From positions 30,818,958-30,882,957 of the forward strand of contig NC_089722.1 of NCBI RefSeq assembly GCF_035083965.1: DNA of 64,000 bases, given 5' to 3'. Positions within the stretch are counted from its first letter, which is position 1, and the number at the start of each line of letters is the position of its first letter. Of this stretch, positions 3,541-61,600 are shown in pieces. The notes beneath the pieces are model-generated. The model was not told the origin of the DNA and ran no database searches. It saw nothing but the letters and a program-made list of their open reading frames with translations. A program made the translations under genes and the position numbers. This DNA is from Branchiostoma lanceolatum. Lineage: Eukaryota > Chordata > Leptocardii > Amphioxiformes > Branchiostomatidae.

Positions 3541-3544
3541 TAGG

Positions 3545-4860: not shown

Positions 4861-5047
4861 CTAAATCCCCCGGTCCCAAGAACCCAGCCCTGAGCACATG
4901 TGCGCTGCAAAGCAGACATCAACTCTAAGATCACTGCCTCAGATCACTGCCTGTACACATATTTTCCAATCTCCTTCCAATCACAACAATGTTCCCATAC
5001 GGCAGCGATTTTCTTTGTGAAAAAGAGTTTGCCAAGTTTTTTTTTAG

Positions 5048-9300: not shown

Positions 9301-12043
9301 ACTCAAAGCACCTCTGCATATGCAGGTTAATGTCGGTAAATTGGGGTTGTGTAAGCACAATTGTTATAAAATGTATTACAATTAACAACCATCACATCAT
9401 GGTGGTAATATTTACTGCCGTATAGTGCACTTGGACCAAAGATTTCTACATGTTCTACATATTCTACTAAAGTAATGAAAGCCTTATTTGTGGCCAGTTC
9501 TTCGTCTAAAAGATATCAGATACAAATAATTTCAAATACAGAGGTTGAAAATAGAAACTTCAAAGTAACATTATACTGTCTGAAAAACTCCCATGATGAC
9601 ACGCCACATTTTACACTTAAGCAGAATATGCCGTGGAACTGCATGTGTATAATCGTCCTCTCCCCATCTGAGTTCACTTCTTCCATGCACTCTTGGTAAG
9701 GTACAGGCAAGGCTGATTTCTTCTGTATCTAGCATGTTGGACTCAGCTTGGAGTTCATCTTGTGATGAACCAGTTCCTATATGATAAAACCAAATGATGA
9801 ATAAATATCAATTCACATACTTAGTATTTAAGTAACATGTCACATGATTTTGACATAACTGTGATCAAGGAGGTTATATAGACTATATAACCTCCTTGCT
9901 GTGATGGGCTTCGTTTCATCACAGCAGCTAACAAAAAACAAGGGACAATGGGTATCCATCATGCCTGTCTCAGCTAACATTGAAGTGTACCGATGAAGGA
10001 CTTAAGCCTTACCGAAGGAGCCTGAGGTACTCTGAGCATCTGACAGCTGATTGCTTTGTTCCAAGCCAAGCTAAGGTCCTCACAACATGCGCTGCATTTG
10101 TGAAGGAAGTATCTGCCGATGCTGTATAGGATATATATATAAAGGGAAACAATGACAAATATTAAACATATCACATAATCACATTTGTAAAAAATGAATC
10201 TGGCATCGTTTAATTGAATACGTAAAACTTACATTCATAACTTGAATATGATATTGATCAAACATGTGCAGCTATAACTGAATGCAATAATCACTGAAAC
10301 ACACTACTACCTCCACATAAGTTCCAGCTCACTATCCACAAACTGTGGGACCTTTGTGGGACAAATACTTATGACATTCTCTTCCGTTACAGGATATCTT
10401 TAATGATCTTTCCCTCAACCGCTTGCTATGTTGTATCTGAAACGTTAACCAGACACAAATGTCTGTTGACCATTGGCAAGAACGAACAAATTGAAAGCTA
10501 TAAATTTCCTAGATCCTAACGGTGTAGAAGTGCAGGTCGACTGGACAATTCTTAATGTCATGCAAATGCGATGATATGTCAAGCCACAATAGGAGGATAA
10601 CTGACGTTCAAACTAGTTAGAAACAGGAATTTTCCAATTTGTACTTACCAAAGGGCAGTCCCTCTAAATGATGAATCGACTCCCTACCAACTTTACAAGG
10701 GGGAGGGGGGCGACGAATATTGCATGCACGAAGAAGACTACTTCGCAATGCCGCGCGTTTGAGTTTACACCGAATCCCCTTCGACTCTCAAGTCACTAAA
10801 AATCACTGGTCGACCATGGTAGACTCTGACGATGCCATGTTAAGCACAGAGAGTGATGAAACGCCGTTCTTGTCTCCGTGCTGTTCACCGACAAAACCGT
10901 TTCTCGCGCCTGACGTCATGACACGCAGTGTCTTGTGGGAGATTGGACACGAATCCGTATGCCGGATACGTCAGGATTTGTAGGAATTGTTGGATCTGAG
11001 GTGCATCGGATCCAATCGGAAACGTTCCGTATCTGCTATGATGCACGATTGCGGATCCGCTGGATTTTTCAGGATCTGAGATCATGCCGTGCAGTGTGTA
11101 TTTGTAAGTTAGGATCCGAAGCAACTACCGACAAACAAACAATCCGATTATCTCTGCCATATTGACAAATATCTGAAAACGAAGGATCCGCGCAAATATC
11201 CTCAGGTATCCGAGGCGCATCACGGATCCAGACGTATACGGCGTCGGAATTGCCGGATCTGAGCTGTACTTAGTATTTGTCTGAATTTGCTCGGAAACGT
11301 TCCGTATCTGTACCCGAAACGTATGAAGGATCCAGAAGTATACGGCGCCGGAATTGTCGGATCTGAGGTGCATCGGATTCAATCGGAAACGTTCCGTGTC
11401 TGCTATAATGCGTAATTTCGGATCTGCTGGATTCGTCAGGAAATGAGAACATGCCGTGCCGTGTGTATTTATTCGTCAGGATCCGAAACAACTACCGACA
11501 TACAAACAATCCGAACATTCCAAATATAAAAAAAAGAGAGATCCGCACAAATATTTTCGGGTATCCGAGGCGCATCACGGATCCAGAGGAATACGGCGTC
11601 GGAATTGGTCGGATCTGCGGGCACCTCAGTATCCGATCAGTGAACTGGGATTTTTCCGGATTCGCTCGGAAACGCCATGAGGCCCGATTCCGGATCCGTC
11701 GGATCCGTCAGGATACGTGGCCATTTCGTGCAGTGTATATATATAGAAATTATAAATGTCCATGTATGTCACATGTATGTAAAATGTACAAAACCCACCT
11801 TCATATGGAAAGATGGACGCTTCTTCATCAATAGTATGGTGCAGCTGGGCACTCTCGGTATCTTTGTCGATGATATCCCGATTCGGGATAATCTGGAGAG
11901 TGCCAATAACTGCACCAATTCTATTGTTTCGGGTGACTTGGCGTCCATCACCAGAAAACCTCACTGAAATCTCGTCTTGGCTGAGATGATCCTTGTACTT
12001 TGGGTGGCACAGGAGGTGGATTAGCGGGTCTCTCACAGATCGA
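6370..12043 (-). CDS. transposase-like multi-exon gene (DDE type with C-x2-C insert), partial
   Basis: Four exons join in phase with GT-AG borders: about 12,043-11,799, 8,149-8,038, 7,846-7,731 and 6,473-6,370. The product runs through VRFSGDGRQVTRN, then WHLTADWKFLSTMLGI, GASSKSFCLWCHCKKEE, and finally FEFDRIVPDVLHL. An Asp in a GDG turn, a second Asp in a hydrophobic strand (ADWKFL) and a C-x2-C about 20 residues later follow the order known for RAG1/Transib and CMC-type (CACTA/Mirage/Chapaev) transposases, and similar peptides occur in uncharacterised invertebrate proteins. The catalytic Glu region downstream of LHL was not found. The first exon start is uncertain. The first intron (11,798-8,150) contains the nested 8,308-11,735 element. 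Function as an active transposase or a domesticated gene cannot be decided. Confidence 0.6.
8308..8965 (+). repeat. left subterminal repeat array
   Basis: A unit of roughly 185-190 bp is repeated: gatactgacggatac, then a stretch reading gcggattcgtgtaacgtatc, cctgaagaatccgaaag, ttcgacg(a/g)ata and ccgtacactgtacggaaat. Two near-identical copies (about 8,370-8,520 and 8,550-8,700) are followed by shorter, more diverged ones. The 284-residue minus-strand open frame over this array is a product of its low stop content. Confidence 0.75.
9729..10397 (-). CDS. spliced exons inside the nested element, partial
   Basis: Three exons keep one frame: 10,397-10,311 (before gtagta), 10,121-10,013 (after tatacag, before gtaagg) and 9,776-9,729 (after atatag, ending TAG). 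The peptide includes PTKVPQFVDSELELMW, then a Cys-rich HKCSACCEDLSLAW, and ends MNSKLSPTC. No family is recognised. The 5' exons are not identified; a possible donor (gtaagt) sits at about 10,650. The exons lie between the terminal inverted repeats at 8,308 and 11,735, so they may encode a product of that element or be captured host exons. The second exon is also open in another frame, which weakens the model. Confidence 0.35.
10930..11735 (-). repeat. right subterminal repeat array
   Basis: At least two long copies of about 390 bp are visible: gaggtgcatcggat(c/t)caat, ggaaacgttccgt(a/g)tctgc, catgccgtgc, then aactaccgaca and caaacaatccga, and gaggcgcatcacggatccag recur at about 11,000-11,240 and 11,360-11,600. 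GGATCC is highly frequent. In reverse complement the vocabulary (gatcctgacgga, gcacggca) matches the left array. Confidence 0.7.
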
Positions 12044-12244
12044 CTGGCCATGTTGTTATCGGTCAACAGGTGTGGTACAAGATGAGGAGTAAGTCAAGTT
12101 CCTTCGTATAGTTCTATCATTCAAGGTTGAAATTTGTTCAGAAATCATGTTGAGATATCCCACCGAACACTCGGGTATTAGAATGATTTTTCTAAAAATG
12201 TATATGCATATATTTCTACTTGTACTGGGAACATTGTGACATAC

Positions 12245-12307
12245 CACTGCACTCTGATGTTTCTGCACTCAATGTCCAGTACATTTTCCCTGATTTCCTC
12301 CATCTTC
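12245..12307 (-). pseudogene. second copy of a transposase-like exon
   Basis: A 63-nt piece between an acceptor (aattag) and a donor (gtatgt) reads KMEEIRENVLDIECRNIRVQ plus W. It aligns with the 3' part of the 8,149-8,038 exon (EEMEDIQKNGLSIGDKTLKV, then KW), with the same exon-end phase and a similar donor (gtatgc). It lies upstream of the exon that should precede it in the protein, so it is a remnant of a second, probably tandem, gene copy. Confidence 0.5.
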
Positions 12308-12590
12308 CTAATTATGGACAGTTAAAGCTGCTGATTACTGTGTCATAGTCCTCTCCACCTTGTCATGTAAGAAAGAAAATGTATGTTAATATACTGCTGT
12401 GTATATATACAGTCACGTTGTATGATAATAAAAACTAAATGTTTGACCCTTAACAAGGTTTGATTTTCCCTATAGAAATATCTTACACCGACAACGGTTA
12501 TTCGCAAAAGGTAGTTAGTGACTCAACATCTCAAGTCCTTCCAATGTCTATGTAAAACATAAGTTGCTTTCATAATAAAGTAACCATTTA

Positions 12591-14262
12591 CAGCTACATG
12601 CAAAATTATTCAACCCCCCTTGCATTTCGGACATTTTGGCAAATTGAGGAACTTTACAGCTGCATAATGTTACTAAATCATATAAGTGATGAACAGATAT
12701 GTTATTACAGTCTGATATTACAGCAAAAGTTAAGATTTTTTTCATAGTCCATCCAAAATAGCAACTTTCACACAAATAGTACGTTGCAAAATTATTCAAC
12801 CCCCTATGAGGGTTTGTCTTTAGTACTTAGTGTAGCACCCCTATTTATCTAAAAGCTGAATTCACTTGATGTAGACGTGAACGATAGCTTGTCACAAGCT
12901 TCTGGCAGTGCTCTTTGGGAATTTCAGCTTATTTCTCGTAGGTAATGGTCTCCAGCTCAGCAATTTTCTGAGGTTTACGTGTCGCAACTGCTGTCTTCAG
13001 ATCCAACCAAAAATTCTCAACTGGGTTAAAGTCTGGAGAGTGTTATGGGTACTCAAGAACCTTCCAGGTTCTTTTTCTGACCAAACATACGTGGATGTCG
13101 ATGTGTGCTGGGGGTTATTGTCTTGCTGGAATGTCCAATGACGCCCCAGCTTCAACTTTTTAACGGAATTGGTAACCTTCCTGGCCAGAATATCCTAGTA
13201 CTGGTTTTATTTCATGATGCCTTCATCACGGTGGATATTCCCAGTGCCATTAGAAGCAAAACACCCCCAAAGAATCTCAGACCCATCACCATGCTTCACA
13301 GTAGGCAGGGTGTTCCTCTTTGCGTATGCTTAGTCTTTCCTGTGCCAAACATACCTCTGACCCGGAGGACCAAAGAGGTCAAGTTTTTTTGTTTCGTCAG
13401 TCAATATAACAGTGTCCAAAAACTACTGTGGCATTAGTAGGTTGTTTTGAGCATGCTGGAGGCAACTTTTTTTGTCGCATGGCTTCAGCAATGGTGTGGG
13501 TCTTGGTTTTCTGGCATTGAGCCCTTCAGCATGAAGTGTGCGGCGCACTGTGTCCACTGAAACAACAGTTTCTCCTTCAGCCAAATTGATTTTCTGGACT
13601 TTTGCAGTAATCATATGGTTCTTGTCCACCTGTCTTCTAAGAAATATCACCGTGGCTGCTGAAATTCTGGCCAAGAATGTCGCCAGGTCAGTTATGGAGT
13701 TGAAGCTGGGGAGTCATTGGACATTCCAGCAAGACAATAACCCCCAGCACACATCGACATCCACGTATGTTTGGGCAGAAAAAGAACCTGGAAGGTTCTT
13801 GAGTACCCATAACAGTCTCCAGACTTAAACTCAGTTCAAAATTTTGGATTGGATCTATTGAAAGCTGTTGCGGTACGTAAACCTCGGAAAATTGCTAGCC
13901 GGAGACCATTGCCCATGAGAAATGGGCCGAAATTCCCAAAGAGCACTGCCAGAAGCTTGTGACAAGCTATCGTTCACGTCTACATCAGGTGAATTCAGCT
14001 TTCAGATAAATAGGGGTGCTGCACTAAGTACTGAAGACAAACCCTCATAGGGGGTTGAATAATTTTGCAACGTACTATTTGTGTGAAAGTTGCTATTTTG
14101 GATGGACTATGAAAAAATCTTAACTTTTGCTGTAATATCAGACTGTAATAACATATCTGTTCATCACTTATATGATTTAGTAACATTATGCAGCTGTAAA
14201 GTTCCTCAATTTGCCAAAATGTCCAAAATGCAAGGGGGGTTGAATAATTTTGCATGTAGCTG
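12591..14262 (-). mobile_element. Tc1/mariner-like element with ~565 bp inverted arms
   Basis: The element is bounded by CAG...CTG with TA on both sides (12,589-12,590 and 14,263-14,264), the classic Tc1/mariner target duplication. Each end has the motif gcaaaattattcaacccc twice, about 186 bp apart (12,600 and 12,786, mirrored at 14,052 and 14,237), an IR/DR end structure. The inverted similarity does not stop there: 12,591-13,155 and 13,700-14,262 are near-complete reverse complements and include transposase coding sequence. Only about 544 bp in the middle is single copy. Confidence 0.85.
12880..13674 (-). pseudogene. Tc1-like transposase, N-terminus lost and frame broken
   Basis: Minus strand, from 13,674: a helix-turn-helix tail with VSVDTVRRTLHAEGLNARKP, typical of Tc1-family DNA-binding domains, followed by the catalytic region in shifting frames. 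The conserved SSKTITPSTHRHP stretch near 13,110 corresponds to the usual QDNDPKHTS block. Frameshifts and stops interrupt it. The expected first half upstream of 13,674 is absent; in its place stands an inverted copy of the C-terminal half (13,700-13,930, plus strand). The source cannot be an active transposase. Confidence 0.75.
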
Positions 14263-14264
14263 TA

Positions 14265-15458
14265 TATGTTGAAAATGAAACCCACTTTTTACTCGATAGT
14301 TCCTAATATGAAGATGAGCGCCAATCGCTGTTTGAGACAATAGAATTAGACCCGAAATGTACAATGAAGTTAAAGTAGGACACTTTCGTATACCTGATGT
14401 CATGTAAGAACGATCATAAAATGGACAATGTATGTAGTCATGATTCCAAATGTTCCAAAAAGAGAGAAGACACAACTAGGTGATCAACATTACTCTAGCA
14501 ATAGTCGACAGCTTGTCTGTTTTTAGTTTTCGATGTTAGAGGCGGAAAACGCTGTGAGACATTTTCACGAATGTACCTTCTGATTTAGTGCTACGCCAGA
14601 TAGGGTGCCTAACTTATTACGCTTTGGTAATTTTGCTCTCTTCGGAAGTTGGTGATGAAGTTAGGGAAATGTAAATAAGGCTTGAAGTCTACTATATTCT
14701 AGCTTTCTTTTGACCGGAAAATTTTGACTGTCTGCACTTTTAACGTCATGTGAGAAGTGCTCTCTCTAGCGCATCCCAGCTCATGTTTTCACGGGAAATA
14801 GGCTACCTCGCACTGTGCGCGCGGCCCGACGTACGTCTTGAATGCGGCCCGACTTACGAAATCATTACGAAAAAACGACACCGCTTACATCAACAATGCT
14901 CCGTCTACTTATTGGGAAATATCTTCGCCATCTCTGTATTCAGTTTCGTTTTCATGGACGGTACCAATCACATGTTAGAGCGTAACAAAGCTATGCGTTG
15001 AATCGTTCCGCCACCATCGCGGCCCAAAAAAATGTCGGGAAAACAAAGTCGCCAGACGACAGCAATGTTTACGTTGTTTTTCTCTGGTCGGTTTTCTTCT
15101 CAACAAACAATTAAAGACCCAAATTTTTAGTGTTTTATGAAGTTATATTTCTTATGCGTATGATAGTTGTGTGACTTGTGTATCTGCTTGGCACAGGTCG
15201 TATATTTAGGTGTCGGGCCGTCTAGCTACGCAGTGACCCTCTACTCAGCGCTACCATCATTATTGTCAAAATACTACTTTTCGACAAAACAAGAAATGAA
15301 TATGTACATGTATGTTTTGAATGCAAATGACAATTATGTGCATGAACTTGGGTTATTTACCTTCCTTATCAGCATAGTCATTGGACACAAACACGGCGTA
15401 GTTATGGGAAATAAGATCAGTAAAAAATCCGTAGCATGTTAGGGCAGGTCCCGTTACC
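14265..15458. other. no recognisable feature
   Basis: No gene recognised. 14,720-15,120 is richer in CpG than its surroundings, which could mark a promoter or first exon, but no start or splice evidence supports one. Confidence 0.45.
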
Positions 15459-20244: not shown

Positions 20245-38905
<18,661 letters not shown>

Positions 38906-39510: not shown

Positions 39511-40291
39511 TATGCGGTCGGCACCCTGTATGTATAACTGAACACATTGACTTCGTTTTCACTAGAACGCCTCCTTCTGTCTACCCTGAAAACTGCAGTC
39601 AATAACGTAGGCCAAAGTAAAGAGTTTTTTTTTTTTAAAGCATCTTTGAATCCGAAGCCACAGCTTGCACATAGAAGGTAAACCGTACTGTATCTTGGCT
39701 AATTCACCTTTTAGACCTTGGAAAATAATGCCTAACATTACATAACATAGCATAGCATGGTATAACATCATAACCTAGCATTGGATATCATGAAACAACA
39801 TTGCATATATAAGTCCAGTTCATCCTCGGTTAGCATAAACACTACATACATGAAACCTATCTAAAGTATGTTGTATGAATTTTGACTAAAGATTGTATAC
39901 CACGTCGTCCATACAAGTCCAAATTTGCATCAATATCAATGGAAGAAATTAACCTTTATCCGTTAAACCAACTACAGGCGTGGTAAGTACGTTTGCTCCG
40001 AAATCTATGTATATAAACTTCTTATGCATTCATATTTCTTACAATAGAAAAAATTAGATACCAAACAATTTTAGATCTATCATATTGGAAATGTTTTGTA
40101 GGATTTATGGAACCTTTATCAGTTAAACGATATAATATGTACATATGTAATGGTATATGGCATGGTTGTGAGCACAAAGTAATTCAGAGTGAAACCTCAA
40201 AAAATGTAGGTACATTGAAAATACATCAGTGTGTCGGTGACATTGGGTTGCCGAGTCCTGTATACATGTACACTACATTTAGAAATCAAAA
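39511..40291. other. no recognisable feature
   Basis: AT-rich; no supported gene. Confidence 0.5.
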
Positions 40292-40395
40292 CCCCCGCAG
40301 TCACACATCCCGCAGTCACAATCTCCACATTCACAATCCCCACAGTCACAACCCCTACAGTCACAACCTCTACAGTCACAACCCCTGCAGTCTCA
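40292..40395 (+). repeat. 15 bp minisatellite
   Basis: About seven copies of a ccc(t/c)(a/g)cagtcacaa(c/t)-type unit in tandem. Confidence 0.8.
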
Positions 40396-40489
40396 AAACG
40401 TCACTGCGGTTTCTTCCACCGACTACGGTTAGAAAAAATGCCACGAGTATGAAATTGCCATCATTTACCTGTATGTAATCAAAGTAGCT

Positions 40490-41600
40490 TCTCCTTATGC
40501 AAATTACGCCTACAATTGCATATTTTCTATCTATTAACATTCCTCTCTTCCTCAGTTACGAATGTCACATATTTGAAAAGTCAAATCATGGAACACAGTG
40601 GGCTTTTAAAATTGTCTCATTAGTTATGCAACTTAGAATCTGATTTGCATAATTATATCCAATCATACAAAGCATCTGCATCTAAGCTATCTACATACCA
40701 AAAATCAAGACCATCCATCCAGCCCATCTTAAGTAAGTATTTTGTAATTAATTATGCAAATGAGGTCTTCATTTGCATAGTTGATATTTATTAATATTTC
40801 TTTCCTCCTCAGTTACATATATTTTACATATGTTTGAGAGTCCTATCATGGAATTTGGCGGATGTATAAATTTTCCTCATTAATTATGCAAATTAGATAC
40901 TTATTTGCATAATAAGTATCTAATCATGTACATCATCACTCAACCCATCTACTTACCAAAAATGAAGACCATCCATCAAGCCCATCTTGAGTTATAGTAT
41001 TTTCTCATTGATTATGCAAATGAGGTATTCATTTGCATAGTTGATATCTATTAATAGTTCTCTCCTCCTCAGTTACATATGTCACATGTTTGAGAGTCCT
41101 ATTATGGAATTTGGCGGATGTATAAACTTTCCTCAATAATTATGCAAATTAGATACTGATTTGCATAATAAGTACATAATCATGTTAATCATCACTCAAG
41201 CTATCTACTTACCAAAAATCATGACCATCCATCAGGCCCTTCTTGAGTTATTCCATTTCAAAGTCTGAAGCAAAACCTGCTCTCTTGCAGTTCAAAAAAG
41301 CCGATAGGGGGCCCAAACCTAGACCACTTACTCTCTGTCCAAAGAGCTATCTACCACTCAAAAATCAGGACCATAGCATGTCCAGAACACGAGATATCAA
41401 AACAGGAAGTTCCGCTGCAGTACCCTAACAAGCCGCTAGGGGACCCAAAAACTAATCATTTTCATGTCTCATCAAGACCTACCCACCTACCAAATATCAA
41501 GACAATCCATCCAAGCCTTCTCGAGTTATGCTGTACGTTACAAACAAGCAAACACACAAACGCTACCCTCTGCATAACCTTCTCGGCGAAGGTAATCACC
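40490..41600 (+). repeat. array of ATGCAAAT/ATTTGCAT repeat units plus family tail
   Basis: About three units of 180-200 bp (near 40,610, 40,870, 41,130) share a tcattaattatgcaaattag or gatt variant, tgatttgcataa, ctatctacttaccaaaaatc, tcctcagttacatatgtcac and gagagtcctat(t/c)atggaat. The last continues into the gccgctaggggacccaaaa tail and ends at ataaccttctcggcgaaggt near 41,592. Confidence 0.8.
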
Positions 41601-41691
41601 AGCCAACTCTAGATCCAAGATTTGAGAGGGTCATCGAGTAAAGAAAAACGACTCGCTGAGACTTGATTATTTATGAGATTTTTCTTAAATA

Positions 41692-41890
41692 TCTCTTACT
41701 AGTAAATTAATGGGATAAGGGGTGCTATCCTATTAATTTACTAGTAAGAAAATTTTACTCTTATTACTCAATTAATGGAATAAGGGGGTGCTATCCCATT
41801 AATTTAGTAGTAAGAGAATTTCTTTAGATATCTCTTACTAGTAAATTAATGGGATAAGGGGGTGCTATCCCACAAATCTACTAGTAAGAG
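41692..41890. repeat. three tandem hairpins, ~70 bp period
   Basis: Each unit is itself an inverted repeat: ctcttactagtaaattaatg then ggata, a gggggtgc loop, then tatccc(a/t)..aat(t/c)ta and ctagtaagag. Units span 41,692-41,750, 41,758-41,816 and 41,831-41,890. Confidence 0.85.
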
Positions 41891-42373
41891 ATTTTAAAAA
41901 TTGTCCTATAGTGAAATAATGGGATACGTTTGTGACAGCCGTTATCACGTGTAAAAGTAGTTATCACGGTTTTCGATTGAAATACTTTTTTGGAACAAAA
42001 ATTGGGATAAAAAGATTGAGCTACTTGCAGATCTGTTTAAGTAACAGTCATGTGTCAACACATGCGCAATAGTCATACAAGATTGGTTCAACGTCCAGCT
42101 ACAAAGGACGAAGAACAACCTCTGTCCCTTTGTCGGTCGATCACCTGATTAGATTATCGATATGTAGCAAACAGAACAATAGTGTTGGCGAGACTGATCC
42201 CTCCCTGTACGCAAACTGTCCTCGATCTTTGATACCTTATAGTTAACGCAAACAAACGAACAAAAGAAAAGTATGTGTATATGGAGAGAGCAAATAGCCG
42301 CTACTTTAAAACTTTGGACCTGGTCGACAAAAGAAGAAACATGTCATAAACAAGTATAGTATCGAAGTTTAAA
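41891..42373. other. 3' flank of the CARD-only gene
   Basis: No second gene seen. Candidate poly(A) signals on the minus strand were not decisive. Confidence 0.4.
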
Positions 42374-43584
42374 CTACAAATTATCTGAAATGCAAACGGG
42401 AAAAATTCGGCAAGTACCATGAGGACGCCGCCCAAGATCCTTCCACCGTTTCTCTCCTCTCCTCACCGCTGTCTGAAGACGTGCCCGACTCTCCAGTAGT
42501 TGTTTGACAAGGTGATGGTATGGAACTTCCCTCAAACTTTGGACGAAGTCGTCAAAACCGTCGTAGGGTAACTCTGCAACAGCAACACAGTGAATAAGGT
42601 CCATTATAATTTGGTTGCAAAATCACATTTTCATGAATGTTTTATGATGATGAGGAATCCCCCCGTCTCTGGAAATGATGTTCAAGACGGAAAATCTCAG
42701 AGGAATGCATTAGATTTATAATAATACGAAATACGATGCCTGAATTTTGATAAAGATTTTATGACAGACAACGGATAACTTTTTTTAAATGTAGGTTTAC
42801 AGCTTTAGTTTACTTAGTACGGCAAGTATCGCTCATGATTGACAGACTCTTGTGATTGGCTGATTAAGCTATTTTCAGAAGTTGCCGACCAATGGGACGA
42901 AGGGCTACGCCTCAGTGACTGGAACCTTTGGACTTGGGACTAATGGTCACCTACGGCAGTTTTCTGGGTGACAAAACGCCATAAAACAGTGGCGCACAGT
43001 AAGAAACTAATAAAAACACTTGAAATATTGCTTTTGAACCTAGTAACCTTGCACGATTCATACGCATGTTGACCTTCGAGATTAGGGAACTAAAGGGCTG
43101 CTAACTGGCAAAACACTCTTTTTGCTCTGGCTCTGCATATTTATCAAAACCAAGTATAGGAGGTCCGAGTTCAGTTATCCGCCTTGGTTAGGCTTACGTT
43201 ACGTTTGTACGTGTTACGCTTACAGGTAACGGTCACGGAACCGATTATCACAGCAGATCACATGTACAGGCAAACTAAGATGACATTCAGACTAGGTACA
43301 CGGTGAATTGGCCTAATTAACATAACTGTTTTAAACTGAGTTCATTAACTACATGCAGGTAAAAAACTATTACAAAGTTTCGGTAGCGGAAACGTACCGA
43401 GCAGTTTGTCCAGTAGCGCCCTCGCGCCGCAGTCTGGTCCCTCGGTTCTCGCCCTGGCCCGGATGAACCCTGGGTCTCCGTCCCGCCAGTGGACCGTGCT
43501 GTACCGCAGGACCAGGACCGGGTCCATGTCACGGACAACGTCGTCACAGCAGTCCAGGATAACCTGTCGGTGGAGCGGGTCCAT
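42374..43584 (-). CDS. CARD-only protein, 128 residues
   Basis: Two exons, 43,584-43,398 and 42,573-42,374 (TAA), join in phase 1 with gtacgt and ttgcag borders. ATG at 43,584 is chosen because the peptide from there (MDPLHRQVILDCCDDVVRDM, then a VLRYSTV helix) starts like a CARD helix 1; an upstream in-frame ATG at 43,662 would add 26 residues. The core LLDKLLELPYDGFDDFVQSL, REVPYHHLVKQLLES gives the LLD...F..F...L...LL pattern of helices 4-6. A basic tail (RRGEKRWKDLGRRPHG) follows. CARDs are homotypic adaptor domains of apoptosis and innate immunity; a CARD with nothing else often regulates larger CARD proteins. The intron inside the CARD and the near neighbour with another CARD suggest a local family. 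A death-effector or death domain is less likely. Confidence 0.7.
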
Positions 43585-44832: not shown

Positions 44833-44922
44833 TTAAGGTGCCGAGTTGTCCTGGTGCCGAGTTGTCCTGGTGCCGAATCGTCCTGGTGCCGAGTCGTCCT
44901 GGTGCCGAGTTGTCCGGATACC
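44833..44922 (+). repeat. minisatellite, ~16 bp unit
   Basis: Five copies of ggtgccgagttgtcct (with cgaatcgtcct and cgagtcgtcct variants). Same unit as the right end of the 36,840-37,688 element; here no opposing end is visible, so it may be a solo end. Confidence 0.8.
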
Positions 44923-45183: not shown

Positions 45184-45363
45184 ACACAAAAAGTTTATTT
45201 GCAAGTTCAGGCCCGAAGGCAAGTACATTATAGAAACATAGGACACAATGGACAGTGATTGACGCTGTTGTAATAATAGACTACTTAGATTATAGTGTTG
45301 GCTATATCTAGACATCATCGATTTGACATCTTTTTGGGGGCGGACGAAGACGACAAGCCCCAT
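45184..45363. repeat. dispersed repeat, copy 1
   Basis: Shared with 61,579-61,756 in the same orientation: ttgcaagttca(g/t)gccc, gtacatt(a/g)tagaaacat, a gactg/ttgttgtaa step, aatagactactt and gtgttg(g/t)ctatatc. It lies just 3' of the CARD-membrane gene stop and is probably part of its 3' flank. Confidence 0.7.
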
Positions 45364-45367: not shown

Positions 45368-46994
45368 CTATGATTCGTGGGTTTCTTTGTTTGTGGTAGT
45401 TTTAACATCATAGCTTTGTGCCCTTCTCACTACCCGGTATACCACGAATCGTCTGTTCAAAAGTTTAACTTGAACACAATGGTAGTAACGAGAGAAAATC
45501 CACACATTAAAGATCAAATCACAAACAAATATTGTGAAAACAGCCCCGAAGAAATCTGATTTCATATCGGAATACCACGCGGTAAGGATGTAAAATGTCA
45601 CAGCTATCTCAAGCAGAAGTGTCACCAAGATGGCGTTTCGCAGACTCTGGGCTATCTTTGACCGCAAATAATCTATTTCCTGTAATTCTTTCCTGACAGT
45701 CTCATATCCTTCTTCCAGTAGTTTGTGTTTTTCCTCAGCGGCTCGTGAAAGTTTAGAGTTTGTTTTAACCCTGGGTTCACAGTAGAAAAACTGACACAGC
45801 GATATGAGGAGCATGACGTGTTCGAAGATCGAGAAGTCCGTAATGTTCAGATTAATAGTATACAGAATGTCGTTCAGGAGTAACAGAAAACTTAAGACGA
45901 GTTCAATGTTTGTGATCGTGCAGCTGATTGCTGAGACAACTGATCGATCTGGGGGCCTCCTGAAGATACGGAAGATGACACTGCTGGTGGCCCGCCTGAA
46001 TAGCCTGAATCTCCGTTTTTCTTCACTCTTCCTTGTTGATGGCGCCTCGTACGAATCTATATTGAGCACTGTAGATGTAATAGAAATAGATCAAGCGTCA
46101 CTAAAAGAATTGTAAGACTTGTATGTATTTCTTTGATGATGAACACATTGTCATTACATTAGACATTTATGACCGCTGATAGATAAGTCAATACAGCACG
46201 TTATATGTCTTTTAAGCATACGATGTAAAGGCCAGAAAACACCTTTAACACAAATTGTGCTTGTGTCACCAATGATACTAAGATACATCAGTTCCTGATA
46301 ACAAGCAACTATCATAAGTATTGTTAAATAAAATAAAGTATACTATTATGCTCGCTCCTAAAGCTTCGCTAAAAAAACGCTTGTACATACACCCTTCTGA
46401 TGTTTGGAACCTGGTAACGCGACTCTCGAAAAACCTTCATTTCAGAAGCAAACAGTGCATAATTATGGTTTGTTTATACATACAATTGTAAGTTTCCATT
46501 TTTGTTTGCTTTTCTGCTTCAGAAAAGAACGTTTTTCAAGAGTTGGGGTACCAGGTTCCGAACCGACTGTCCTGTTAAGTATGACGTCATGAGGTATAAT
46601 TAAATAATAACTTGATTACCTGGTGGCAGGAATCAAAAGCTGGAAGAAGGATTTGTAAGATTCGATGTTTGATAACATTAGAAGGGTGTGTGTTGGTGCA
46701 AAAGTCTGTGTTCACTGTATTTTTCACTGTATATTTGCTATGATAGAAAGTGCGTTAGTTTTTGAATCAGCCTCGAACGTGTATCAACAGCATCAACTTA
46801 CCAGTATCTCCAGATTCATCTTCACCCAAAAGGCAAGCCAGCTGCTGATTCCCGGTTTGTCTGAGAGCGGCTCTAAAGGAATTGAATGCAGTGGACCCCT
46901 TCGCATCCAACAAGTCCAACAGTTTTCTGACTTTGTCCTCTGGAATGAGTTGTGCTTCAACATGGTGCGACTCTTCTGGCGACAAGTCCCGAGT
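45368..46994 (-). CDS. CARD plus four-transmembrane protein, 5' incomplete
   Basis: Exons 46,994-46,802 and 46,068-45,368 (TGA) join in phase 1 (gtaagt donor, catctacag acceptor) and give 297 residues. The first exon carries helices 3-6 of a CARD: LSPEESHHVEAQLIPEDKV, RKLLDLLDAKGSTAFNSF, RAALRQTGNQQLACLLG. The second has a basic stretch (KRRFRLFRRATSSVIFRIFR), two hydrophobic segments (around SFLLLLNDILY and FEHVMLLISLCQFFY), a charged predicted coiled coil (EEKHKLLEEGYETVRKELQE), and two more hydrophobic segments (AILVTLLLEIAVTFYILTAW; FGAVFTIFVCDLIFNVWIF). CARD helices 1-2 must come from an upstream exon that I could not find before 49,450. The gene would place a CARD on a membrane, as MAVS does with one segment, but four segments with a coiled coil is a different plan. 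A fold-back MITE sits in the intron. Confidence 0.7.
46402..46565. mobile_element. 164 bp fold-back MITE
   Basis: The ends ttggaacctggtaacgcgac, tctcgaaaaacc and, in reverse complement, cggaacctggtaccccaact, cttgaaaaacg pair for about 50 bp, with tttcagaagcaaaca and cagaaaagcaaaca steps inside. Located in the intron of the CARD-membrane gene. Confidence 0.75.
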
Positions 46995-49451
46995 CTGTCG
47001 GTCAAAGGTGATTTTTTGTCAGAAGGTTTGAAACGCTACGTTGGGTTCTAATCACCGCGCCCAGTATGGGATATGATGCTATGAACTGGTGCAATTCACA
47101 TGCAAAGACAACCTCTGAGCCCCTGACACACCGACGAGCTTCGATTGGTCGCATTTGTTTGTCAACGGATTGTCGCTCGATTCTAAAATCGGCAGAGGGT
47201 CGCATTTTCCCCCTAAAAGTAAAAACCTCTATCGTATGGGCTCAATGAACAACGGACATCAGCCGATGCTAAGTGACAAGGGCTTTTGCAGTTATCTTCT
47301 TCTTAAGTAATCTGTATTGAAATAGAAATGAAATAGACATTTTTACGGGATAAAAATACACCCGTCATTAAAATTTGAAGCATTAAGGGGGGACACCCCA
47401 GTTTATTTGGGGTCTCAATTCGAGTTTGCACACCATCAAGTCTAGCGGCTGTCTCTTCCAGGAAATACTTTTGAGCCAAAAAAATAATGTATTTAGGAAT
47501 GAAGGCTATCCCCATGTTATATAGTTACAGCCGAGTTGATAATCCTAGATTCATTTTGCGGTGAAAACAATACAATGCGATTCAATCGATTACATCGTGT
47601 AGAAATCGATGGTCTTCAAACAAAATACATCATATGCATGGACTATCAACAAGGAAAAGCCTACAAATTGTAAACCAATTTGCTGAATATGCAATTAGAA
47701 GTAAGAAGGTATTTGTTTCTTAGATATCTAGATGCCCATTTTGATGCACACTCACAGTAAACAATGAATTGGTAAAAAGCGGAAGTCCAATATATATGGC
47801 GGAAGTCTTTGATTTCTCCACGCAGCGCAGACTAATTGATAATTCCACAAAAAGACTTAAAGGAGGGCTTCCATTTTACCCCTGGAATAAAGACACACAT
47901 ACCATCTTACTGTCTTAAGTTGATAAATAGAGGCTTTGAGTTGACTTGACTGGACATGCCTTGACTTCACGGATCCTTCTTAATCGGTGACTAGAAGGCA
48001 AAACACATTGAGCCAGAGACCACATGGCGGCCACATATTTCCCTGACGGGAACTTTGATCTGTACTAGTATGCCAGATACAACCACCTGTATTATGGTTC
48101 CACTGAAAGTTTCTGACGTATGAAGTCCCCTCTATCTTCTGTGATCCGTTTAGAGACCCTACTGTCAACGACGCTGTTTTCTTCCGAGGCCACAACCAAT
48201 GATATCACATCAAAGTTTGTATCACATGTATATCACATGACAGGTCGCAAGTATGTTAACTGCCATACTAAGGGTCAAAGTCTATCATTTGGTGCGTTAC
48301 GTCACGTATGTAGTTCAATGGAGAGCGATACGGTGGCCGGGTGGCGCCCGTGGCATCAGATATAACGTTAAGTGTACAATATATATAGATAAGCATTATA
48401 GCGTTACAGCGATATATACCGTATTGCGGTACACAAATTACATTGTTAGATCCGGCACGGACGCGGTGTAAATGGCCACTAACATTTAGACTCGATCAAG
48501 AAGGTTCGTCCCAAGTTAGCTCTCTGATGTTTGAAGATGACTGAGAAGTAACATGAAATGGAATATTCAACGAAAAAATGTGTGTTACTGGGATGGGAAA
48601 GCCTGGTTGACCGCATTTTAGATCTGTTAGCTTTTTTATTGTTTGATTTTTATTCACTGTAGTATTGGTTAAAAGCAATTATCATTGAAGTATAATTTAG
48701 AACTTGAACCTTGTGTGCGACAACTATCTATTCTCAGTAGGCTCCTTGAATACAATTTTTGTTTTGTTCTATGCTTCAAGCTATTACAAGTGATTAGACA
48801 TTAATTTTCTTTTCTTTCAGTGTTCTGTGCAGCCACATAATTGTGAAGCTGACTTACGTCTTACTGAATTTGGACCATGACCCGCCACATGCCAGCTTTT
48901 TAAAGCACTTGTTTGTTTAATGTTTAAACTAAGCAATGAGCCATACATAGATTCATGCAATCATACATGTACTTGTTACATGTATGATTGCTAATGGAGG
49001 AAATAAAGTATCCACCTGCAGTATCCCCATAGACTGAATACATGATCTACCTACAACCATGAAAATACATTCCGAAGTCATCAACAACTAAAAATTACAT
49101 AAAACGTTGCCAGTTTCACGCGTAAAAGTTCCACGGCTTCCGTAAGGTTTACTGACCTTTACTGCAATACATAAAGTGTTTACTATGCGGCGCTTTTGAT
49201 ACATGTACATCCATCACTAGGAGATTTTTCCTACGGTGTGTTAGATTCTGTGTAGTTGGTGTGTAATGTTTTCACAAGGAACACTTTCGCTTCAGTATAT
49301 CTTTGTAAAACTTTAATGTTTGAAAATGATTCAGAATGCAGATACCATAGACGCTCTACGAGTAGATAGACTTGAATGTACTGTATTACAAGAGTGAATA
49401 TACCTAAAATTTTGAAATGGAATCGCCCGAAAAGTGCACAGAAGATCCAAG
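46995..49451. other. intergenic, divergent promoters expected
   Basis: It lies between the minus-strand CARD-membrane gene and plus-strand ARMC5. No gene was recognised. One perfect hairpin is at 48,958-48,992 (gcaatcatacatgta, loop, tacatgtatgattgc). The first exon of the CARD gene should be here or was lost. Confidence 0.45.
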
Positions 49452-52400
49452 ATGGCGACGGCTGAAAATGACCCCGTCTCGCAAGCGATTTGGCAACTAA
49501 AAAGGGGCACAAACAACGCTGTCTACAATTCTCTGGTCAAAATTCGGACGGAATGTATAAAAAGGGAAGGCGGGGTGTCCAAATTCCGCGAATTGGGAGG
49601 GATTCAGGCGTTAATTTTGCTAATTCAGAGGCCTAACCCGAAGATCGCTGACGTAGCTCTCAGCATCCTGGCCAACTGTTGTATGGAGGGGGAAACAAGG
49701 AGAGAGGTATTTTATTTTAAAACTTTTAGGACCTTATTTGTCCCAAATTATCAACTGATTCTTGTAAAATATTATTGTTTAGTACTAACAACTGTTTTAT
49801 TTTTTTTAGGTGCGGAAAATAAAAGGATTGACACCATTGGGTGAGTCAATTTTTTTTACCACATCCCCTTATTGTAAATTGAATCTTCTTATGCCAAATA
49901 TGACCATAGCTATGTCCTTATTTAGGCTGGCAAATTTTAATACATGCATTAGCTAGGCTGTACCACGTTTTGCAGGGGGTTGAAGGTTGTAAGTATGAAA
50001 AACAGGTGCTCTGAGCCTTACTGGTTTCTTTGAGAAACTTTTACGTCCTTAGTTACGTTTATGGACTGAGGGCTAAGAAAAGTAACAACAGCATGATGTA
50101 ACGTGTTATAGAATGTTGTGTATTGTGGAAACAAACACCCCTTGCAAACACCAACATTTAGGAATGTTCTATTGTAGAATTGGGGGGTTTAGGGTCATAT
50201 TTTCTTGACTGGTCTTTCATGATTCAATACCCTTGTCTAACTCTGATATTCTGACTACTTAGGTTAAATCCAAGTAAATGATTTGTGTGGAATTGAATAA
50301 ATTGAATTATACAAGTAAATACTTCCTTGTGTTTGAATAAAATATACTTTTTTTGGCAACACCTCATCTTTCCATAGTCTTCAAGCAGGTGTTGAAAATG
50401 GGGTGGAAGATTGTAATCTTTTCTGGCAACTTAACCATGCACCCACCCAATGCATATCAGACAACATTACGATCTTCAACCCCAATATCTGCTTGGAGAT
50501 ATTAAGCCTCTTCAGTCCTGTAGATTTGCAGAATTGATTAAAAAAATAATTGTTGTATTTTTGGCAACACACCTGTGAAGCATTTTCACAGTTTTTCACT
50601 CTAACATCTGCTTGGAGATGAGCTTTTTCTGTCTTTTAGATTTAACATTACATAATTCCACTTTTCCTTCCCAGTGAACCTATTGAAGGCAGTGAAGTCA
50701 GACAGTCTGCTGAACCGAGCGGCCCGAGCCATCGCCAACCTCGCTCTCGATGCCACCAACGCTCAGGTCATCCACAGTCTCACGGGGGTCCCCGCTCTCA
50801 TCGATATTCTCAACAACACGGAAAGTAGCGAGTGTCGCCAGAGTATAGTCCGGGCTATCCGAAACCTCGCGGACACAGAGGAGCATCGAGATGAGGTGAC
50901 TCGCTGCGAGGGCCTCCAGGCTATCGTGGAACTATTGAAGCTAGATGATGTCCCGTTAGTGACCCAAGCCGTCCGGACAGTCACCCAGCTGACCAAGAAC
51001 TGCACCTTCGAGTGTGCGCGGCAAGTCTCTGAGGGAACTGGGATATCGTCGCTAGTCGAACTGGCCTCGCATGTCAAGCCAGTCATAAAGCAACAAGCCC
51101 TACTCTCGCTTGTAAACCTGACTTCACATGGCAGTATCAGGCCTGATATCGGAAACGCAGGCGGGATACAGATCTTTGTGAAAGAGATCAAAGCCAGTCA
51201 GGACATCTCTAATGTTTTACCTGTGGTGAATGCCTTATGTTTGTGCTGTAGAGAGGCTATCAACAGGCTCAGGGTGAGAGAACTCAAAGGATTGGAACTT
51301 CTAGTCTCTCTTTTGAAGTCTCCGTCTTGTAAAGACGTTCATGAGAGACTTGTTGGGACTTTTCTATGCTTTTTTTACGACGAACCCAGCTTAGAGGTAC
51401 TACGTGGAGAGGGACTTATTCCACTGCTAATGACCAAACTACTGGACAGCGTTAACGTCTCGTCTACAGACGAGGGATCAAAAGGCGGTGGAAAGTCTGC
51501 CCCCTCGTCTGCTTGGTTCTCTGCCTCATGTGACTTCCCGACCGAGTTTAATCGCTTTCCTGATCCGCTAACGCCGTCCAACAAGGCCTCCAGTTTTGTC
51601 AGCATGCAGACTTGGTTACAACAGCAGCCGGAGTATTCCGCTGAGCTCGGCCAGCTTAGTCCCGGGAGCGCCAGCCCGCAGTGGTCACCAGCCAGCAGCT
51701 CCGCGTCCTGCTCCGGCTCGAGCGACGGTAACGAAGAACTCGCGCCACGAGTGTTCAGCCCTCAGATACACTGGACGGAGGAAGACGAGACGTTACTGGA
51801 TACAGAAGATGATGATAATGAGAGCAACTCTGACAACGTGGACAATGTGGCACAATTAGAACCTTCAACACTAGTACTAGATACCAGCATGCAAGAACCT
51901 CCCTGTTCGCCCGTGTCTGTGTCAGAGGACGGTCCAGAGTCGACAACGCTTCAACCTATCAGGACGGGCGCATGCCCCGATTATTCCCCATCTAGTCCTC
52001 CCAGGAAGCGGCGACGCCCAAGCTCTAGCCCAGGTCCTAGGCTTCAGCTAGGCAACAGCAGTCCTCAGACATGTGGCAGCCCCCTTGCACGGGAAGTCAG
52101 AAGGGAAGAAACCAATGAGAGCGTGACTGGGGACGTTGTACCAGGCAGCCCTGTTGGACTCATTCCCTTAACAACGGACCACATGTTAAACCCTTCCTCT
52201 CTATCCTGTGCCCCCCTGGTGATCAGAGTGGAAGAGCCCAAAGACATGGAGCACAACATCCTGCTCCTCCTCTCTAGATACTCCCAGATGGTAGATCCCA
52301 GCGGTTGCCTGGTAACCAAACAGTGTGTGAATGGACTGGTTGACTACATCCATTCAGCCCCGCACCCAAACCCGCGCTGCACACGCATCCTCAACCGCCT

Positions 52401-54054
52401 TACATGCAATCCCAACTGTTTCGAAGCCTTCATAACGGCCCATGCCCTACATAAGATACACAACACTCTCATGGCATCACACACAACATCCACCCATGAA
52501 CATCAAAGTACAGAAGCCTGTGGTCTGAGGGTAACAGTAGATGAAAACACCAGTGGAGAAACAGTCTGTAAAGACAACACAGTTATTAAAGACAAAGAAG
52601 ACCAAGAAGCTATGAACGAGCCAAGTTCTCTGTGCGGTACTCCAAGGAAACAGAAGGCAGAGGAAGGCAATGGAGATGGGAGAGTGGAAAGTCAGTACGG
52701 CGTTGGATTGTCTCTCCTTAGGAACCTGAGCGTACAGGCAGAGTCGTCGTATGGCAACGGGATCCTTACACACCTCCTGTCCGCTGTCACGGATGCGGAG
52801 AGGACTGCGTGTGCTCTGGCACTGCCATATCTCTGCAGGTCAGTAAGATACAAGTTTTGTTCTTTAGAACTGTTGGTGAAGAGTCACTGAAGACTATGAC
52901 TAAAGAAATGGATAAAATCTGGGCATAGATAACTTACAGGAAAGTAATTAACAAGATAGATCCACAAACCTTCCCCTTATCTTATAGATGTACATGCAGT
53001 CAGATACTGAAATATTATTACAATTTTTGATATTCTGACACAAGTAGTCAGAGTCAAAACCAATAGTTGAGTTTTCAACATCTTGTATTTCTAGAATATG
53101 TGCTCTTTTGTGCTAGTGAGCTGCGGAATTTGAATACCTTCTCTTTCTCAGTTCACAACATTTTCTTCCCTTTTCAGGAGCAGAGCGCTAAGAACAAAGA
53201 TGCTGATTGAAGAAAGGGGGCTTCACCGTCTTGTAGATATCGTTCAGAACAGCACAGATGAGCTGCTGTCCCTAGCGGTAGACAGCATTGCCATGACAAA
53301 GTCAGGATGGGACAAGCGGGACCAAGAGGACTCGGATACAGAGGCAGAAGGATCTGACTCAAAGGAAAACTGCAACACAGACACTGTGGAAGACGAGACG
53401 TTAGGAAGTACAAGTGATGTGACCAAAGCTGTGGAGTCTGTACACATACAATCAGGTACGGCTGAGTGTCGTTACAAAACACTGTCGGACCGACACGACG
53501 TCATTTTCAGACTTGAGGACAAGTCTACCGTCTCTGGATGCAGAAGAGTCGCAGCGGAGAAATCCGCGGTCTTTGCCGCCATGTTGGAAGGGCATTACTC
53601 CGAGTCTGCCCAGAGCGAGGTCAACATTACGGGTGTTTCTCACGACGCGTTTTTGTACCTTGTACACTTCATACACGGATGTAGGCATAGCAACTGCGCA
53701 GAAATGCAGATGATTTGTAAGGGGGGCAGTGTAGGGACAAGCCAGTTAGAACAGCCAGTAGAACTCGAGATTTTGGCTGTAGCCAATAAGTACCTTCTGC
53801 CGACACTGCAGGACAGTATGGCTGATGTGATGTTACAGCAAACGTTGTATATATCACCTGGAAGTGTGTTGAAACTGTACCTGTACGCTGTACACCACAG
53901 GTGCGATAGGCTCGTGGAACACTGCGTTCGTTTCGTCACGTGCGGGAAGATGTCGAGAGAGGAGAGAGTGAAGTGTTTCAGGGACTTAGCTCACTGCGGA
54001 GAAGAGAAACCTGCGTTTCAGAAACTCAAAGAAATTCTCAAGGTTTACGTGTGA
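49452..54054 (+). CDS. ARMC5: ARMC5, armadillo repeat and BTB protein
   Basis: Four exons: 49,452-49,706, 49,810-49,840 (31 nt), 50,675-52,838 and 53,178-54,054 (TGA), all GT-AG with matching phases, giving 1,108 residues. ATG at 49,452 (aagATGGCG) is the first ATG of the frame. Residues ~1-360 are armadillo repeats (GGIQALILLIQRPNPKIADV, RAARAIANLALDATN, QSIVRAIRNLADTEEHRDEV). About 365-570 is a Ser/Pro/acidic disordered part with a basic RKRRRP patch, then more helical repeats. About 914-1,030 is a BTB domain (HDVIFRLEDKSTVSGCRRVA, AEKSAVFAAMLEGHYSES). In mammals ARMC5 is the substrate receptor of a CUL3 ligase that ubiquitinates RNA polymerase II subunit RPB1, and its loss causes adrenal hyperplasia. 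The product is somewhat longer than human ARMC5, mostly in the disordered part. Confidence 0.95.
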
Positions 54055-58642: not shown

Positions 58643-61600
58643 CTAACCAAATAGTTTTACGAAGCAGGGGTGACAATACGGTTTATCGTTCTGTTCCTTG
58701 AATGTCCCTTTGTTTAACTGTTTCAAGCAGAAAGCGCAGACGAAGTGTTCTGGGTGGAACTTTTTGGACATGGCTGTGATGCAGCGACCGGTGATCGGCT
58801 TCTGGCACCCCGAGCAGAGCGAGCCGCGCTTCGCGTGGTAGTGGATCTCGCAGTACGGCTGTCCGTCGTGGTCAAAGAAGCTGCCGCCGTGGAAGGGTTG
58901 TAGGCATTCCTGATTCGGAAGGGAAAAATGAACGAATGTTTTATTTTTGGAACTCAATGCAATGCAGTTGTTCGTTTTTTTTTAACAAAGTACAAAAAAG
59001 TCTAAGCCTTGAACGAAATTATTCTTAAAGAGCCAAAGCAACAACACTGATTTCATTACACTTAACATCACTGTACATTCATGCAGATATGTTACAATCG
59101 GCTTATAGCAGAGTAAGAAACCTAAACATATGTAAGAAGGCCACTCAGAGGACCGATAAAATCTGGTCTATGTGGAGAATTGGCCCCTATAGACAGGATT
59201 CTTAATGCTTGTGTCAATGGGAAAAATTACCTAAGAGGCCACAAAAAGTGGTCACATTGGCCAGGTGGTCTTTATGTACAGGTGCTCACAAGTTTGACTG
59301 TAATAAGAATGATGTGTGTTTTTCAAGTAAGAGAAAATGTACCCGCCGGGTTACATAGAATCCACCAGTTTGAAAAACTGGGAGTGAGGGATCTCTAGCA
59401 CAGCCCTCCCAGGTATGCACAGTTTAGATATACAGGAGTGCATTACATGTTTACTGGGGGACGTTGGGTTTGAGATCTGTTTGGACGTATCTTTTCAGGG
59501 TGGCGGAATTATGTACCCTGGTGGAATTATGTTAGTATCTGTATCTGTATCTATATAACTGGTATAACCGCCATTTGGCGTAACACACCAGCTTCGCAGG
59601 CACGTGGCGCAGCAGCAGCTGGTTATATTACGCCGAACGACCTGTCACGTCTAACCTTTGCATATCTAACTGCATGCATTGTTTAAAGCTGTCTAATGAG
59701 GATACTTCCACAGTACTTGGTTGCAACGAGTTCCACTCTACGATCGTTCTAGGAACATACAAATTTTTGAACACATCAATCCTAGGTTGAAAAGTCTGAT
59801 ACTTAAAGGCATGGCAATTGGGGAAGGAGGCACTCAAGCTAACCGACATCTTTCGCACCGCAATCGTCCTTCAGTGAGACATCTGGAGCCGCATAGTTCA
59901 CGTTTGGAACCTTTATTCAGCCATTTGTACTATTTCTTGTCCTTTTCTGAGCTGGTATTAGATACTTATTAGTCGGTACGTCCACCAGTTTATTAGTCAG
60001 TTTGTACATCATGAATAGTAGAAGCACAAGAATGCTCACCCTGCACACAAAGCAGCCTGGATGCCAGTGGCCGTTCAGAGCGGAGATGTAGTTATCCACG
60101 ATGGCCTTGTTGCAGCCCCCACACTTGGGCGCGAACATGTCGAAGTAATCCTCGTAACAGTACGCCTTCCCGTCCTTCTCGTGGAAGCCCTCCTGACCGA
60201 AGGGGCGGCCGCACTGGTTGCAGAAGAAATGTTCGGGATGCCAGGTGTTCTCCAGCGCAGTCACACATTTCTGGGGGAGAGATCAGATGTTTGTTAGTTT
60301 TTGTGTTTGTCATAACTGGTAAACCACCTTTTGGCATAACACAAGAATTTGCTTAAGACCAGACTGTAGATTTGTTCCACTCACAGGGAAGGGAAGGACC
60401 CTACTCTTTTCAATAACTGGTGGGATCTTTAGAACGGTTGAGGTGTGGCTCTCCTCAAACACAGGACCTCCAGCTCTATGTCCCAACACAAGAGGACGTC
60501 CCTAACCAAAGCTAGGCACTCATTTTCGCCCTAGTCAAGTGGGGAAGTAGGTGTAAAAAAGAGCCTTTCCCAAGGTTACAACAATGGGGTCTGCTAAGGA
60601 TTCGAACCCAGAACCCTTAGATTCTAATTCAAGAACCCTAACCACAAGACCATTTGAGATGTTATTCTCATGCCATAGGTTTTGATATACACCGATTCAG
60701 ACTGTTTTCTTTGAAAACAACTTTGAAGCAAAAGCATTTTATTAAAAACACTTTCATTTAGTTCCCTTTGAGCTAATTTCATGTTCCCTGCATACATGTA
60801 TCACAGTTACTTTTGATACATTTCATACCAAATAACTACTTTCCCATCTTCCCCCTAAAAGCTTTTCAAATGGAACAGTCCAGAAGACTTACATCTAGGA
60901 TAGGTCCATTACAGTAGCCACATCTGGGGGAGAACAGGTTATGGTAACACTCCTCGCAGAAGGGAGTCCCGTCTCTCTCGAAGAAGTTCTGGGTGCCCAG
61001 CTCCCCGTTGCAGTTCTTGCAGGTGAAATGTTCAGGATGCCATGTCCTGCCAAGGGCTGTTACAATCTGAGATAGGGACCAAAAGAGGATTGACATTGGT
61101 TCACAAACAAAGCTGTATACATGATATAAGATATTGCTTAAGCCGGCGTCACAATTCATGCGAGCGTCGGCCGACTTTGTAGATCAACCGAAGCTCGCTG
61201 AAATTCAAAATCGCCCCAGCGTCGACTGTATTTTCCAATGAAAATCTCGGGCGACGTCCGTCGAACACTAAAAAACTAAAAATACCCCATGAGATGGTAC
61301 CATCTCTTGGACATGGACGAAGTCAGTATCGACTAAACTGGTAAAAGGCCAATATTTGCATCAACCCGCGTAGACGACAGGACGTCGGCCATACTTCGGC
61401 TGAAAATGCACATTTGAAGCTCGCCAACACGTCAGCCGAGCTGAATTTCTCATTTGTGACGGGGTCTTTAGAATTATCTGGATGCTATAGGTGTTTGCAG
61501 TCAATTACAGTCATATAAATAAGCTCATTTTTGCTGTTTGTATAAAAAGGACAAAAATAGGTTAAAAAAAAAAAGGTTAATTGCAAGTTCATGCCCAAAA

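Follow-up and report, generated by a model that had tools for sequence, protein, structure and literature searches.

NOD1, CED-3 and caspase-9 are cytosolic proteins in which the CARD is combined with NACHT-LRR or caspase domains and which have no membrane segments. A precedent for death-fold-like modules on polytopic proteins is provided by the ER proteins BAP31 and BFAR, both polytopic and with DED-like parts, which talk to caspases; the product described below differs from them in that their modules are DED-like rather than CARD and in that the number and the order of their transmembrane (TM) segments are different. In MAVS (IPS-1), as described in PMC5557890 and PMC4565553, a single C-terminal TM segment follows a proline-rich or other linker. 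Unusual death-fold combinations have been reported from amphioxus, and a CARD with several TM segments is not described in the accessible part of that report (PMC2575513). Likewise, among the matches listed in a search of the open-licence PMC literature, no title or abstract opening mentioned the fusion of a CARD with more than one TM segment.

We analysed a 64,000-nucleotide stretch of DNA from Branchiostoma lanceolatum (hereafter referred to as the window), the GC content of which is 41%. Its minus strand carries, from position 46994 to position 45368, a candidate gene represented by two exons, A and B, whose product would consist of part of a CARD followed by four TM segments (hereafter referred to as CARD-4TM). 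Like MAVS, this product has an N-terminal CARD that would be held at a membrane by hydrophobic sequence in its C-terminal part. It differs from MAVS in having not one hydrophobic segment but four, arranged as two pairs on either side of a polar loop, and in that the visible half of its CARD, a half domain only, is of the PF00619 type (NOD1/CED-3-like), with CARD_2 not listed. Because of these four segments and the PF00619-type CARD half, we do not file the product as a member of MAVS; by analogy, it may work like MAVS. The contrast with a single C-terminal anchor, which a preliminary description of this DNA had drawn, agrees with what PMC5557890 and PMC4565553 say of MAVS.

Exon A (46802..46994, minus strand), delimited by its Pfam PF00619 match and its splice sites, encodes CARD helices 3-6 and supplies residues 1–64 of the product plus one base. 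It follows a cgacag acceptor in phase 0 and ends, one base into a codon, at the donor CTG/GTAAGT, the cut preceding GTAAGT. After an intron of 733 bp in phase 1 (46069..46801, minus strand), exon B (45368..46068, minus strand), the last coding exon, leaves 233 codons open after the junction and encodes residues 65–297 and the stop. A candidate polyadenylation signal, AATAAA, is located 168 nt past this stop (45194..45199, minus strand). The phases of the two exons match, and joining them creates an open frame of 297 residues with a terminal stop, in which the junction codon G/TG specifies Val. The exact-phase junction proposed in the preliminary description was thus reproduced, and its donor is a very strong one. 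When scored with a consensus matrix, this donor reached 10.5 bits, which places it at the 100.0th percentile (rounded) of the minus-strand GT sites; it was also the strongest of the 11 donors with at least 5 bits and at least 25 open codons in the region 46130-49400, the next one scoring 8.4. On the acceptor side, the region from about 46740 to 44000 contains 37 AG sites at which 40 or more codons stay open after exon A, and of these position 46068 opens the longest frame (233 codons). Its pyrimidine tract (12/17) is equalled at two of the 37 sites and exceeded at one (13). The intron between the two exons contains a MITE-like 49-nt inverted repeat (84%; 46402-46450 / 46515-46563).

The two exons might instead belong to different genes or isoforms, with the CARD half forming the end of another product and exon B being joined to some other 5′ exon. 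Translation of exon A through its donor meets a stop after 11 codons, so that a CARD-only form could be produced by intron retention. Exon B has no Met ahead of TM2 and is therefore unable to start a protein by itself; an upstream exon is needed. Yet the donor of exon A is the best of the 11 candidates for exon B, with matching phases, and in the upstream region 46995-49700 none of the three minus-strand frames gave a Pfam domain, which makes it very improbable in our view that the two exons belong to different genes or isoforms.

We also assessed the coding status of the two exons. In 60 first-order Markov sequences of 64 kb, the longest open runs averaged 159 codons and did not exceed 229; the stop-to-stop frame of exon B, at 240 codons, surpasses all of them. 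The length by itself is not decisive, because a frame of 291 codons, in an apparently repetitive stretch, occurs in the same window. The third-position GC content, 0.484 in exon A and 0.487 in exon B, was higher than in the intron (0.351), the 3′ flank (0.389) and the 5′ flank (0.413), which lends weak support to the coding status of the exons. With a crude codon score, trained on four pieces of which one was out of frame, exon A (0.12 per codon) surpassed all of the 110 background ORFs. The value of exon B, –0.03 per codon, was the best of its six frames, and at least 10 of the 110 background ORFs scored higher. The coding statistics for exon B are mixed.

Exon A matched the Pfam CARD family PF00619 with an E value of 2.5e-8 and 34.2 bits (cut-off 23.9). 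The match spans positions 31-83 of the 85 in the profile, which correspond to helices 3-6; the exon does not cover the full six-helix bundle. The preliminary description had read these same helices in the sequence and had named a profile search giving no CARD match as one outcome that would contradict it; the CARD family was what the search returned. It had also expected a W/R surface patch, the W part of which is absent from helices 3-6, as tryptophan does not occur in the visible half of the CARD. When PDB sequences were searched with exon A, there were 19 matches at E values up to 10. Fifteen of these were named NOD1/CARD4, CED-3, caspase/caspase-9 or MDA5, and the remaining four were centrin, ferritin, a designed protein and QRICH1. 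The matches were individually weak, with the best E value being 0.042, and the joined product matched CED-3 with an E value of 0.18. The CARDs of NOD1, CED-3 and caspase-9 were the closest to exon A in this list, and the exon A segment DKVRKLLDLL aligns with DKVRKILDLV of NOD1. NCBIfam gave no match for exon A, and PF16739 (CARD_2) was absent from the Pfam list for the joined product at E values up to 10, a comparison for which only half a CARD domain was available. Taken together, these results support the notion that exon A carries a genuine CARD half, which in-phase splicing could connect to a membrane part with four segments.

To evaluate the membrane part, we searched exon B for hydrophobic segments. 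Four non-overlapping segments of 19 residues reach a Kyte-Doolittle value (KD19) of 1.4; four were reached in 20 of 5000 residue shuffles of exon B. The four segments, all on the minus strand, are TM1 (45875..45931; residues 111–129; KD19 1.98), TM2 (45779..45835; residues 143–161; KD19 1.56, the weakest of the four), TM3 (45578..45634; residues 210–228; KD19 2.22) and TM4 (45497..45553; residues 237–255; KD19 2.06). From the N- to the C-terminus, the five loops contain 12, 0, 11, 1 and 9 Lys and Arg residues. This alternation predicts an N-in/C-in orientation, in which the CARD, the TM2-TM3 loop and the tail are cytosolic. The product therefore fits a polytopic membrane protein, as predicted from its several hydrophobic segments and the alternating charge of its loops, and the four hydrophobic segments of the preliminary description stand, with KD19 values of 1.56–2.22. 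The TM2-TM3 loop comprises 48 residues, 11 of them basic and nine acidic; within it lies a charged, weakly heptad-patterned stretch (45638..45760, minus strand; residues 168–208), which is predicted to be cytosolic and is a candidate for a short coiled coil. The best a/d hydropathy of this stretch, 1.19, was equalled in 1.6% of shuffles, so that a coiled coil is possible but not firm. Of the charged coiled coil proposed earlier, the charged loop was thus confirmed and the coiled coil is weak.

Each hydrophobic segment contains one acidic residue (E120, E147, E218 and D248 in TM1 to TM4, respectively). A rough model with 1–3% acidic residues per TM position gives a chance of 0.1–4% that all four segments would have one, and an acid in every segment is unusual for mere anchors. 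This feature would suit a membrane effector, in which the four-TM part is a channel or pore that is gated by CARD oligomerisation and acts on the membrane directly. Several four-TM channel families share the N-in/C-in orientation with a cytosolic TM2-TM3 loop, which also counts for such a role. The profile searches argue against it: Pfam reported no channel family for the joined product at E values up to 10 or for exon B alone at E values up to 0.1, and the profile of S_4TM (PF18159), a bacterial four-TM effector family, does not match. We therefore consider a CARD-gated channel or pore quite unlikely. The likeness to S_4TM, which was present in 7 of 398 genomes searched, ends with the four TM segments that its name implies. 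Comparison of exon B with five members gave an hhalign probability of 0.5 (on a scale of 0–100) over nine columns, the invariant residues of S_4TM (Q7 N8, KIQ..FD, NWY and CQ..N..W) were not seen in exon B, and Pfam did not list the family.

The arrangement of hairpin, polar loop and hairpin resembles reticulon-homology domains. The product might accordingly be a membrane-shaping or ER-resident hairpin protein of the reticulon type, in which a polar loop stands between the hydrophobic hairpins and the CARD is a passenger module for targeting. We assign only a slight chance to such a function, since Pfam reported no Reticulon family at E values up to 10, BLASTP showed no similarity to the human RTN4 domain (E 5.7 in one comparison), and the hydrophobic stretches, at about 50 residues each, are longer than the hairpins of reticulons. 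The Bap31 family was likewise not reported by Pfam for the joined product or for exon B.

Exon B had no convincing match in Pfam, NCBIfam, PADLOC, PHROGs or PDB sequences; apart from Pfam and PDB, the libraries searched with it contain few animal proteins. PADLOC and PDB sequences gave no match. The NCBIfam matches to VirB5 (E 0.1) and YijD (E 0.28) were at chance level, and we took as chance two weak matches in PHROGs to families of unknown function (E 0.018 and 0.25; exon B residues 97–134 and 116–150, respectively). Besides CARD, the sole Pfam entry for the joined product at E values up to 10 was LMP1 (E 1.8), again a chance match. Scans of GTDB and IMG/VR with exon B gave 23 and eight pattern matches, respectively, none of which was confirmed. 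As these collections represent prokaryotes and viruses, absence from them says little about animal orthologues. A bacterial promoter scan and searches for Rfam families and tRNAs yielded nothing useful.

The two-exon product lacks a start codon and CARD helices 1-2, and the preliminary description had supposed a further, 5′ exon. Upstream in the window, no such exon was recovered by Pfam, by chimera and six-frame searches or by inspection of donors. Pfam detected no domain in three minus-strand frames of 46995-49700. For the chimera searches we used a home-made profile of 13 CARDs and fused candidate segments to exon A. The 491 chimeras made in phase 0 with upstream minus-strand donors as far as 64 kb, each with 18 or more open codons, reached at best 36.4 bits, compared with 32.9 bits for exon A alone. 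A further 1548 chimeras combined GT donors up to 58.6 kb with alternative acceptors located no more than 45 bases into exon A; the best scored 35.4 bits, about 2 bits above exon A alone. In 13 leave-one-out controls, the CARD N-half contributed 4.3 to 24.2 bits. A raw six-frame scan of the 2112 ORFs of the window returned exon A, exon 2 of the neighbouring CARD gene (see below) and two chance-level plus-strand ORFs (E 3.5 and 4.1), without any N-half, and inspection of the upstream donors by eye gave no candidate above noise. As a control for power, we ranked held-out CARD N-halves among the same 2112 ORFs; 11 of 13 came third or better, with E values of 0.0008 to 1.6, and those of CED-4 and CARD9 were missed. 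These tests address a helix 1-2 region in one piece, and one that is itself split by an intron would escape them. As no candidate emerged from a search that recovers 11 of 13 controls, the 5′ exon probably lies beyond the window, is split or unusually divergent, or has been lost.

Loss of the exon would be expected of a 5′-truncated partial duplicate, in which a CARD-4TM gene has had its two final exons copied or left without the helix 1-2 exon, as a decaying or non-functional fragment. In addition to the missing N-half and start codon, for which the control has power (11/13), the space for a 5′ end is limited. An ARMC5 orthologue (49452-54054, plus strand; ARM_ARMC5 PF24768, E 5.9e-87; BTB, E 1.6e-9) is arranged head to head with the CARD-4TM gene, and its start at about 49.45 kb on the opposite strand leaves only about 2.5 kb. 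The mixed codon score of exon B points in the same direction. So does a dual-CARD open frame in Branchiostoma floridae that duplicates part of MDA5, such partial duplications possibly being ongoing according to PMC4565553. On the other hand, the open frames of the two exons, their sound splice sites and the polyadenylation signal fit a copy that is live or very recent. Moreover, our searches would give the same picture for a 5′ exon that is divergent, split or distant; the N-halves of CED-4 and CARD9 escaped them as well. We therefore regard a truncated copy as unlikely. Of the polytopic CARD platform envisaged in the preliminary description, the CARD half and the four-segment part in phase with it were found, and the complete CARD with its 5′ exon was not. 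The CARD-4TM locus looks real. As the window did not yield the first exon, we present it as a promising lead rather than a finished discovery.

About 1.8 kb downstream of the CARD-4TM gene, the same strand carries a second CARD gene, which is of the RIG-I type. Its exon 1 (43398..43584, minus strand) begins with an ATG at 43584 and encodes the first part of the CARD; exon 2 (42467..42573, minus strand) encodes the rest and ends at the donor GCG/GTGAGG. When joined, these exons matched Pfam CARD_2 (the RIG-I/MDA5/MAVS type) over positions 2-89 of 93 with an E value of 4.3e-6 and 27.1 bits, just below the cut-off of 28.2, and their best matches among PDB sequences were RIG-I CARDs (E 0.0016); the queries for both searches contained one extra Ala at the junction and extended beyond the second donor. 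There are two candidate third exons on the minus strand, 42319-42149 and 42384-42301, either of which would add a hydrophobic C-terminal tail (KD19 2.16 and 1.76, respectively). In view of these tails, one may speculate that the neighbouring gene encodes a small MAVS-like tail-anchored protein. A 24-nt direct repeat (83%; 42309-42332 / 42534-42557) copies part of its exon 2 about 0.2 kb downstream and is perhaps a trace of partial duplication. Tandem repeat arrays are located near this gene and downstream of it, at 40495-41251 (256 bp), 40286-40396 (15/45 bp), 41690-41896 (74 bp) and 44837-44915 (16 bp).

In B. floridae, according to PMC4565553, RIG-I, MDA5, LGP2, IPS1 and other CARD genes, with likely immune-signalling functions, lie within 100 kb. 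This cluster, together with the second CARD gene of our window, counts in favour of a real CARD-4TM gene. As Pfam detected no helicase in the pieces of our window that were searched with it (including one frame per strand of 1-15000), we do not claim the window as the counterpart of this cluster. The window additionally contains LIM-domain exons (58643-60282, minus strand; E 4.8e-21 and 1.8e-21), a weak match to the NRF (nose resistant-to-fluoxetine) N-terminal domain (33769-34104, minus strand; E 1.3e-4; 22.8 bits with a cut-off of 27), long open frames that by eye encode a LINE-type reverse transcriptase (23789-25689, minus strand), and a remnant of a Tc3-like transposase helix-turn-helix (13441-13638, minus strand; PF01498, E 5.4e-9). 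We take the LIM-domain exons to be probably part of a paxillin/leupaxin gene.

The explanation that we prefer is that exons A and B complete the coding sequence of a real gene, as its two final coding exons, and that this gene specifies a polytopic membrane CARD protein that acts as a scaffold; we give it about an even chance of being correct. The weak hydrophobicity of TM2, the acid in each segment, the modest coiled-coil signal, the mixed codon score of exon B, the absence of a relative of exon B from the libraries searched and the missing helix 1-2 exon count against it. The expressed protein would have an intact six-helix CARD in the cytosol at its N-terminus, and a basic linker would lead from this CARD to a TM1-TM2 hairpin. 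A cytosolic loop of about 48 residues, in which a short coiled coil could form, would connect this hairpin to the TM3-TM4 hairpin, after which the protein would end in a basic tail in the cytosol. Seated in an internal or the plasma membrane, it might be kept dimeric or oligomeric by packing of its TM segments and by the coil of the loop. Binding of an upstream CARD sensor to the CARD, or clustering of the protein, would gather several CARDs. These could then nucleate a CARD polymer on the membrane, to which CARD partners of the caspase, kinase or NF-kB type would be drawn for signalling. We infer this scaffold action from CARD biology, as the sequence provides the parts only.

The significance of the locus depends on which of these explanations holds, and it would be smaller for a truncated copy. 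Should the protein be, as we think very unlikely, a fusion of a CARD to a new four-helix membrane effector, with an acid in every TM segment and a channel that is opened or assembled by CARD clustering, it would unite a sensor adaptor and a membrane effector in one polypeptide, in parallel with the bacterial coupling of death-fold/signalling modules to TM effectors. If the full-length protein of the preferred explanation exists, it would provide a polytopic seat for a CARD, as compared with the single tail anchor of MAVS. With such a seat, a CARD polymer could be nucleated or oriented, or be coupled to the membrane itself, in a different way. Together with the adjoining RIG-I-type CARD gene, the CARD-4TM gene would then form a testable pair in a basal chordate, where, according to PMC4565553, CARD immune genes cluster.
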